This document shows positions 60,669 to 63,585 of a stretch of 64,000 nt of DNA, one piece after another. The position numbers and the translations under genes were made by a program. Under the pieces are notes generated by a model. The model had not been told where the DNA came from, ran no database searches, and saw only the letters and a program-made list of their open reading frames with translations. The stretch is taken from the NCBI GenBank assembly GCA_028689025.1, contig JAQTXA010000004.1:62001-126000 (forward strand), written 5' to 3'. Each line of letters opens with the position of its first letter. The stretch's first letter is position 1. Source of the stretch: Aliarcobacter sp. (GTDB lineage: Bacteria; Campylobacterota; Campylobacteria; Campylobacterales; Arcobacteraceae).

Positions 60669-61757
60669 ATGTCTAAAATATTTAGAAGAGTGTTTATATT
60701 AAATTTTATAATATCATTAATTGGCCTTTTATTATATTCACAATTAACTCTAATGCCTTTTGAAAAAGAGTTTTTTTATTTGGCTATTGTTTTACTTTTA
60801 TCTTCAATTATTATCTCTTTTTTAGTTTCTAAGATTATAGTTTTACCTATATATATGAATTTAAAGAATAACCAAGAAGAGTTTGAAAAATCTAATAATG
60901 ATATGAAAAATATTACTCATCAAAAATCTTTTGAATTAGAATTAGTAAATACTGCATTACAAGAAAAATATAAAGAACAAAAAGAGTTAGCTGAAACTCT
61001 ACAAGAAAAATTAACATTGGAAACTTTAAATAGAGAGAAAAAAGAGCAATTATTAATTCATCAATCAAGATTAGCTGGAATTGGAAAGATTTCTATAAAT
61101 ATGCTCAATGAATCTGAAGAATTAATATCTAGTTTGAATTTTATCTTGCAAAATATTAATACAATTCATAAGCAAATCGATTTTAAAAACGAGTTAGTAA
61201 CTAAATCAATGGAACAACTGCATAGAGTTGTAGATGAAATGAATATGAAAAATAAGGAATTAAAAAACTTTATCAATCCAAATGAAGTAAAAAAAGAGTT
61301 TTATTTAGATGAAATTGTAATGGAATCTTTAGGTGTATTAGAAAAAACTTTTATGAATCACAACATAAAAATCGATTATAATTTTAGTAAATCAATAAGT
61401 CTCTTTGGTTTTCCAACAGAATTCTCACAAGTTATTTTTAATATTCTTCAAAATGCAAAAGATGCACTTATTGAGAAAAATATCACACCTAAAAAAGTTT
61501 TTGTTAGTATAAAAAAAGATAATGAATTTGCATACGTATTTATTGTAGATAATGCAGGTGGAATTAGTCAAAATGTTATTGATAGCATATTTGAACCATA
61601 TTTTACTACTAAATCACATAGAAAAGCCTCTGGTTTAGGACTTTTCATTTCTAAGATTATTATTGAAGAGAATATGCAAGGTAATTTAGAGTTTGAAAAC
61701 GCAAGTGAAGGCGCTAAATTTATTATAAAAATTCCTCTAAAAGATGAAGAAAAGTAG
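60669..61757 (+). CDS. Histidine-kinase-like sensor without an obvious phosphoacceptor His
   Basis: Two TMs; RLAGIGKISINMLNESEE at H-box; FNILQNAKDAL; VDNAGGI; ASGLGLFI. Confidence 0.82.
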   Translation: MSKIFRRVFILNFIISLIGLLLYSQLTLMPFEKEFFYLAIVLLLSSIIISFLVSKIIVLPIYMNLKNNQEEFEKSNNDMKNITHQKSFELELVNTALQEKYKEQKELAETLQEKLTLETLNREKKEQLLIHQSRLAGIGKISINMLNESEELISSLNFILQNINTIHKQIDFKNELVTKSMEQLHRVVDEMNMKNKELKNFINPNEVKKEFYLDEIVMESLGVLEKTFMNHNIKIDYNFSKSISLFGFPTEFSQVIFNILQNAKDALIEKNITPKKVFVSIKKDNEFAYVFIVDNAGGISQNVIDSIFEPYFTTKSHRKASGLGLFISKIIIEENMQGNLEFENASEGAKFIIKIPLKDEEK

Positions 61758-61786: not shown

Positions 61787-61815
61787 TTGACAAATAAAAA
61801 TTTATTAATTATACT
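61787..61815 (+). promoter_or_regulatory. Sigma70-type promoter of leu leader/leuA
   Basis: TTGACA (61787-61792), 17-nt spacer, TATACT (61810-61815). Confidence 0.8.
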
Positions 61816-61848
61816 TAAACACTTTAAAACAAAAACAAGGAGAGATAT

Positions 61849-61926
61849 ATGAAAATATTTAATTTTTATAATAACCATTTCATCAAAAGTGTTAACTCTC
61901 TTCTGCTTCTTTCTTTTTCTCTCTAA
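61849..61926 (+). CDS. Leucine-rich leader peptide MKIFNFYNNHFIKSVNSLLLLSFSL
   Basis: AAGGAG SD (61837-61842) 6 nt upstream of ATG; CTT CTG CTT CTT run and CTC just before stop; ~100 nt upstream of leuA. Confidence 0.8.
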   Translation: MKIFNFYNNHFIKSVNSLLLLSFSL

Positions 61927-61943
61927 TTATAAATTTTTATAAT
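61924..61943 (+). promoter_or_regulatory. AT-only hairpin starting at the leader stop codon
   Basis: AATTATAAA-TT-TTTATAATT immediately downstream of the leucine codons. Confidence 0.4.
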
Positions 61944-62028
61944 TACAATCACAACAAAATAATCAAAACACAGTTTTTCTTTTTTTATTTAAAAAAAGAT
62001 ATAATAAATAACATTTTAAAAGGTTAAT

Positions 62029-63585
62029 ATGATGGATAAAAATAAAATTATAGTATTTGATACAACATTAAGAGACGGTGAACAAAGTCCTGGTTGTTCT
62101 ATGAACACTGAAGAAAAAATTAAAATAGCTTTACAATTAGAAAAATTAGGTGTAGATGTAATAGAAGCTGGATTTGCAGCTGCTAGTCCTGGAGATTTTG
62201 ATGCAGTAAGTAGAATTGCAGAAATAATTAAAAATTCAAGTATATGTTCATTAGCAAGAGCAATTGATAATGATATAAAACAAGCTGGATTAGCTGTTAG
62301 ACATGCACAAAAACATAGAATTCATACTTTTATCGCAACTTCACCAATACATATGAAATATAAATTAAAAATGAGTGAAGAAGAAGTAATTAAAAGAGCA
62401 ATTCATGCAGTTGAATATGCAAAAACTTTTGTTGATGATGTTGAATTTTCTTTAGAAGATGCAGGAAGAAGTGAAATCTCTTTTATGAAAGAAGTTATGG
62501 ATGCAGTTATTGGAGCAGGTGCTAGAACTATTAATTTACCAGATACTGTAGGATATAGATTACCAACAGAATTAGGTGCAATGGTTAAAGAATTAAGTGC
62601 TTTTGCAGGAGATAGAGCAATTATTTCAGTTCATAACCACAATGACTTAGGATTAGCAACTGCTAATACTTTAGCAGCTGTTTTAAATGGTGCTAGACAA
62701 ATAGAAGTTACAATTAATGGTTTAGGTGAAAGAGCAGGAAATTCTGCTTTAGAAGAAGCTGTAATGGCTATTAAAACACGAAAAGATGCTTTTGGTGATT
62801 TATATACAACTATTAATACACCTGAAATTTATGCAACTTCAAGATTAGTTGCAACGGTAACTGGTGTTGAGCCACAACAAAATAAAGCGATTGTTGGTAA
62901 AAATGCATTTTCTCATGAAAGTGGAATTCACCAAGATGGTGTTTTAAAACACCAAGAAACATATGAAATTATGAAACCTGAAGATGTTGGAGTATTTAAA
63001 GAATCTACTTTAATTTTAGGAAAACACTCTGGTCGAGCAGCATTTAGAGATAAAATTATTCATTTAGGATTTGATAAAGTAAGTGACGAAGAATTAAATG
63101 CTGCTTTTGAAAAATTCAAAAATTTAGCTGATAAGAAAAAAGATGTAACAGATGATGATATTAGAATGTTAATTACTGATGAGTCATTAAATCAAGACAA
63201 AACTTATGAGTTAATTGGATTACAAATATCAGATTGTACAGCAGGAGTTCCAACAGCCGCTGTGGCAATCAAATATAAAGATGAAATAATTAAAGACGCA
63301 GCTATTGGCGATGGAACAATGGATGCTATTTTTAAAACTATAGATAGATTAACAGGTTATACTGGAGAATTAAAAGATTATAAAGTAACTTCTGTAACTG
63401 AAGGAAAAGATGCACTTGCAAAAGTTACTACAAGAGTTTCTTTTGATCAAACAAGTCCTTCTTTTGTTGGACATGGATTAAGTATTGATACAATGCTTGC
63501 AACTGCTAAGGCATATTTAGGAGCATTAAACTCTTATCTTTCTCAAAAAGAGAGATTGTCTAAAAATAGCGAACACCAAATCTAA
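62029..63585 (+). CDS. leuA: 2-isopropylmalate synthase
   Basis: [38 protein letters not shown]. Confidence 0.97.

Follow-up and report, generated by a model that had tools for sequence, protein, structure and literature searches.

A conserved LeuL leader peptide upstream of leuA in Arcobacteraceae and a candidate mechanism of attenuation

How leucine might control leuA in a genome where no GC-rich terminator precedes the gene is a question raised by one locus of Aliarcobacter sp., which lies in a 64,000-nucleotide stretch of DNA (the window, meaning the whole stretch that was analysed; the parts of the leader and leuA described below are on its + strand). The gene codes for 2-isopropylmalate synthase (62029..63585; TIGR00973 leuA_bact, 669 bits, cut-off 599) and is preceded by the SD sequence AAAAGG (62018..62023). 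Two ATG codons open it (62029-62034), of which the second (62032) is the likelier start because many relatives keep only that one and its SD spacing is better. Upstream lies a 25-codon ORF, leuL (61849..61926, MKIFNFYNNHFIKSVNSLLLLSFSL), which has its own SD (AAGGAGAG, 61837..61844, core AAGGAG) and carries five Leu among the last eight of its 25 residues. Both the ORF, with five Leu codons near its end, and its AAGGAG SD had been pointed out from the letters of the DNA, and both are indeed present. leuL is the only ATG ORF of 15–40 amino acids in the window that combines an SD with at least four CTN codons among its last ten. Neither Rfam (no leader match up to E 10) nor Pfam and NCBIfam gave a match to leuL, and short models of this kind have limited reach. 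The gene upstream of leuL (60669-61757) resembles a sensor histidine kinase, with no NCBIfam match at the cut-off.

The analysis described below indicates that the short ORF leuL ahead of leuA is real and conserved and is a further instance of the reported LeuL system, and that it probably senses leucine through the speed at which ribosomes read it. Our main reading, to which we give roughly even odds (about 0.5), is that leuL encodes a leucine leader peptide that would attenuate leuA transcripts started at its own promoter P1, with a helix (H1) shutting off re-initiation and Rho as the most likely terminating factor.

We searched leuA upstream regions from 107 genomes of the same family. The sequence-only reading had pointed to Arcobacter, and the nearest named relatives are indeed Aliarcobacter/Arcobacter. 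The leader pattern MKIFxFxNNHFIKSVN(S/T)LLLLxxSL preceded leuA in 78 genomes, which belong to 13 genera of Arcobacteraceae. Diverged leaders, still with the Leu run, were present in two genera (g7 and g12), and in three genera (g5, g8 and g20; L100-L103, L082-L085, L086, L093 and L095) leuA had no recognisable leucine leader. A lack of conservation of the Leu-codon run in related species would have spoken against the sequence-only reading; the run is kept across 13 genera, and the reading was not refuted by this check. It is further backed by published work on Campylobacterota. LeuL was reported in 2013 upstream of leuABCD of C. jejuni, with rare leucine codons, and in most Epsilonproteobacteria that have leucine genes (Porcelli et al., PMC3847290); translation of C. 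jejuni LeuL was seen by Ribo-seq in 2025 (PMC11955535). Other families of the order also had a leader before leuA, with different peptides, such as SIKFLPKIEIKNALL (family f19) and SRKFLPKIEIKNSLLLLLR (one genus of f9). Leaders from these families were chosen by a score on SD and leucine codons, which favours the presence of an SD and a run, not their match, and swap controls were used for this reason. In some Campylobacter-type genomes (L261, L262 and L231), leader and leuA were >220 nt apart and seemed to be separated by an insertion.

The five Leu codons of leuL are, in order, CTT, CTG, CTT, CTT and CTC. In the 56 long ORFs of the window, from which alone codon usage was taken, Leu is encoded by TTA (60%), CTT (20%), CTA (10%), TTG (8%), CTG (1.3%) and CTC (1.1%), the share of CTC and CTG together being 2.4%. 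With this usage, the chance of finding CTN at all five positions is 0.0036. The claim that every one of these codons is of the CTN type in a mainly TTA-using genome is thus borne out for the window, and the codons are of a rare type, although three of the five are CTT. The first four (Leu18-Leu21, CTT CTG CTT CTT, 61900..61911) are the presumed control codons; Leu at these positions was retained in 61, 67, 70 and 67 of 71 leaders, mostly as CTN. The last Leu codon, which adjoins the stop codon (61921..61923), was CTC in all 78 Arcobacteraceae leaders, and CTC is the rarest Leu codon of the window. As TAA, TAG, CAA and GAG are the anticodons of the tRNA-Leu genes detected in the genome, CTC is probably decoded by tRNA-Leu(GAG). 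Pairing of an SD with the C-terminal codons was tested as the cause of this invariance and was not supported.

Constraint on leuL extends to the peptide upstream of the leucine codons. Measured as raw proportions with synonymous sites near saturation, pN/pS was 0.18 over codons 2-16 and 0.09 over codons 10-16, which encode HFIKSVN in Arcobacteraceae (pS 0.63, pN 0.056); for the leucine part of the Arcobacteraceae leader the ratio was 0.62. The motif LPKIEIKN of other families had a ratio of 0.056 (pS 0.88, pN 0.050), and the corresponding ratios for leuA on the two sets were 0.063 and 0.077. LPKIEIKN, which lay just ahead of the Leu run, was nearly invariant, and its codons showed many synonymous differences (in L129, L135, L147, L250, L263, L264 and others); it occurred at most once per genome in 41 searched genomes of one family. 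Judged by these ratios, HFIKSVN and LPKIEIKN are constrained as amino acids about as strongly as the enzyme leuA, which neither RNA pairing alone nor codon counting alone predicts.

One explanation is that leuL senses both codons and nascent peptide, such that residues before the Leu run, situated in the upper ribosome tunnel, would favour arrest and the peptide would help to set the response. The low ratios and abundant synonymous change described above argue for this, as does the position of the two motifs, both of which end 1-2 residues before the Leu run; amino-acid conservation near a putative stall site, as expected for arrest peptides, is found in HFIKSVN. However, the peptides differ between families, and both motifs are missing from g7, from C. 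jejuni-type leaders and from other genera, and we regard this explanation as tentative and on the improbable side. A more elaborate version, in our view doubtful but worth stating, is that LeuL of Campylobacterota might be a hybrid, in which clade-specific motifs (HFIKSVN in Arcobacteraceae and LPKIEIKN in several other families) would cause arrest when charged tRNA-Leu is short, and the Leu codons would serve as a switchable anti-SD for the leader. If the peptide-level selection does reflect ribosome arrest, the amino-acid leaders of Campylobacterota would be more than codon counters.

In the predicted fold of the leader RNA, the leuL SD is paired with the beginning of the leucine run in helix H1, whose 5' arm overlaps the SD (61838..61845) and whose 3' arm extends from the Ser17 codon to the start of the Leu19 codon (61897..61904), being complementary to the SD with one G-U pair. 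The predicted fold of this RNA in the window was no better than that of shuffles (z -1.35), so that structural claims rest on comparison. In other families, CTCTCCT is a frequent form of the Leu run and is complementary to the leader SD AGGAGAG. To tell covariation from shared consensus, we calculated a matrix of duplex energies for all combinations of SD and Leu run, centred it by row and by column, and set the native pairs against permutations. The native pairs were better (z -6.2, 91 dereplicated leaders), also when one leader was taken per peptide cluster (34 leaders; median z -4.7, worst p 0.0003). Examples of such pairs are GGAGGATAGA with TCTATCCTCC (L123), AGGAGCA with TGCTCCT (L092) and AAGGAGT with ACTCCTT (L141). 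No swap-test signal was seen for the leader SD with N-terminal codons, for N-terminal codons with the Leu run, or for the leader SD with the post-stop segment. By this test, the leader SD covaries with the start of the leucine-codon run across the other Campylobacterota families. Within Arcobacteraceae, random CTN runs pair with the leader SD as well as native runs do, and since SD and run hardly vary there, H1 in this family rests on its stability (mean -10.6 kcal/mol) and on the evidence from other families. For trpL, base pairing between the ribosome-binding site of the leader and a segment further downstream has been put forward as a way to limit leader synthesis. Two further pairings noticed by eye in the window (KSVN codons with a CACAG segment, and SFSL codons with an A-tract) were not kept in relatives on inspection.

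The same complementarity bears on translational attenuation, which the sequence-only reading had offered as an alternative. Here, a different fold would hide the leuA SD once the leader is fully translated, as has been proposed for the LEU element of Actinobacteria. The anti-SD-like Leu codons, the LEU precedent and the short spacers without terminator in other families are in line with it. However, pairing between the Leu run and the leuA SD was not supported (swap p 0.07 overall and 0.36 in Arcobacteraceae), nor was a pairing between leuA SD and post-stop segment, for which no covariation was seen, and the predicted partner of the Leu run in the window is the leader SD. We therefore consider translational attenuation unlikely.

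The interval between leuL and leuA contains two AU hairpins. H2, the AT-only hairpin said to begin at the stop codon, was located there (61924..61945; 9 bp, -3.9 kcal/mol), and H3 is a T/A hairpin (TCTTTTTTT-ATTT-AAAAAAAGA, 61978..61999) inside a T-tract that begins at 61974. In an arm-swap test on a single genome from each of the 13 genera, hairpins that combined the 5' arm of one genome with the 3' arm of another folded worse than native ones. The median z values were -4.35 for H2 and -4.52 for H3; they are not exact probabilities, the permutation treating genera as independent. H2 was not predicted in several genera. On the basis of this test, H2 and H3 covary within Arcobacteraceae. No terminator-like site and, as had been claimed, no GC-rich terminator was located between leuL and leuA. 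The description of the locus as a classic ribosome-mediated attenuation layout thus holds for the leader ORF and its control codons, but not for the remainder, as no terminator/antiterminator pair was found in this interval.

Between H2 and the T-tract is a G-free spacer (61946..61972), a candidate Rho loading region by composition. In 78 genomes, the segment from the stop codon to the T-tract had 2.5% G and 12.9% C, i.e., a C/(C+G) of 0.84, compared to the window's co-directional intergenic DNA, where it was 0.52; outside Arcobacteraceae the bias was weaker (0.65), and spacers of just 45-70 nt were frequent. A rho gene is present in the genome. The G-poor, C-containing spacer and the rho gene fit a role of Rho, and are suggestive of it, composition being no reliable indicator of Rho sites.

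Termination without Rho would require RNA polymerase to stop at the T-tract and H3, which would then act as an unusual AT-rich intrinsic terminator. Both elements are conserved and covarying, and C. jejuni LeuL RNA ends shortly past the stop codon (PMC3847290), which counts for our main reading as well. On the other hand, the U-tract precedes the hairpin rather than following it, and the H3 stem, nearly all A-U, has a predicted energy of about -4.9 kcal/mol. Such a terminator appears improbable to us, and Rho-dependent attenuation remains the reading that we follow below.

Two promoters may serve the locus. P1, a sigma-70-type promoter of leuL (TTGACA-17-TATACT, 61787..61815), matches the consensus at 11 of 12 positions. 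A promoter scan found promoter-like sites no more often in the real sequence than in shuffles, and the call for P1 therefore rests on conservation: of the 78 Arcobacteraceae leaders, 75 have the pattern TTGAC[AT]-17-TATA[AC]T, with a spacing that is invariably 17 nt, in agreement with the consensus promoter that had been claimed. In addition, a candidate -10 box of a second promoter, P2 (TATAAT, 62000..62005), is located before leuA, abutting H3. It was found in all 78 genomes (TACAAT in one, otherwise TATAAT), in 74 of them at 30-35 nt from the start, and a conserved TATAAT at this place is what a sigma-70 -10 box would look like. Outside Arcobacteraceae, exact TATAAT was not enriched (10 of 77 vs 14.4 in shuffles), and a looser -10 set was enriched (52 of 77 vs 32.0 in shuffles, sd 4.2), which is weakly supportive of P2. 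Since H3 is situated where P2 would have its -35 region and spacer, the T/A tracts may also act as DNA, or may do so instead of acting as RNA. Inspection by eye of C. jejuni-type leaders L243, L244 and L253 showed a short hairpin directly before the -10-like TATAAAAT or TATATAAT. leuA is not mentioned in the main text of the published start-site map of C. jejuni.

With a separate promoter for leuA, leuL could be mainly an independent short transcript or a functional small peptide, P2 driving leuA. The -10 box in 78 of 78 genomes, the peptide constraint and the existence elsewhere of a trans-acting leader peptide, peTrpL, would agree with this, but control in cis explains the Leu run with its rare codons and the constant position of leuL ahead of leuA, and we consider an independent leuL very unlikely.

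Under the attenuation mechanism that we favour, a pioneer ribosome would begin leuL before the leucine codons are transcribed. When charged tRNA-Leu is plentiful, this ribosome would finish quickly and depart, and the leucine-codon segment could then fold onto the leader SD to form H1, such that new initiation would be blocked and the downstream RNA would be free of ribosomes. Transcription would then halt in the G-poor spacer or the T-tract before leuA, most likely by the action of Rho. When leucine is short, ribosomes would stall on the CTN codons, perhaps chiefly on the invariant last CTC; stalled ribosomes would hold H1 open and cover the stop-codon region of the RNA, and transcription would continue into leuA. 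P2, directly before leuA, would provide unattenuated basal expression. The response to leucine, Rho as the terminating factor, the part played by H1 after the pioneer ribosome and the activity of P1 and P2 are what we infer here.

leuL of leuA represents no new kind of regulation, and parts of its layout can be recognised in several known systems. The enterobacterial leu attenuator has a GC-rich terminator hairpin followed by a U-tract, plus a competing antiterminator. Compared to the leuL attenuator of E. coli and Salmonella, the leader of the window has no Rfam or Pfam match and no terminator/antiterminator hairpins. Leaders of the E. coli tnaC type are Rho-dependent and are controlled by free ligand. 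They share with the window leader a short ORF, C-containing and G-poor RNA past the stop codon and the absence of an intrinsic terminator, but control in the window would be by charged tRNA-Leu rather than free ligand, and arrest and Rho are putative. In the Actinobacteria LEU element, a pseudoknot is proposed in which leucine codons are paired with the SD of leuA (PMC1262725). It is similar in having a Leu codon run upstream of leuA that serves as anti-SD, whereas the run of the window would, by prediction, pair with the SD of the leader itself, its pairing with the leuA SD being unsupported. LeuL of C. jejuni and other Epsilonproteobacteria, as far as the published main-text descriptions go, is likewise a short SD-preceded ORF before leuA with rare C-terminal CTN codons and no reported GC-rich terminator. 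Compared to C. jejuni LeuL, the peptide sequence is different and the distance from stop codon to leuA is longer in the window. H1-H3, the invariant CTC, the peptide constraint and P2 are absent from the main-text descriptions in PMC3847290 and PMC11955535, and the literature searched offers no worked-out mechanism. The observation in the window is thus placed in a named, phylum-wide system, to which comparison of genomes adds the covariation of H1 in other families and of H2 and H3 in Arcobacteraceae, the invariant CTC, the peptide constraint, a candidate second -10 box and a G-depleted spacer. Among these, the SD:Leu-codon helix, the invariant CTC, the two covarying hairpins and the second -10 box are offered as testable elements of LeuL.
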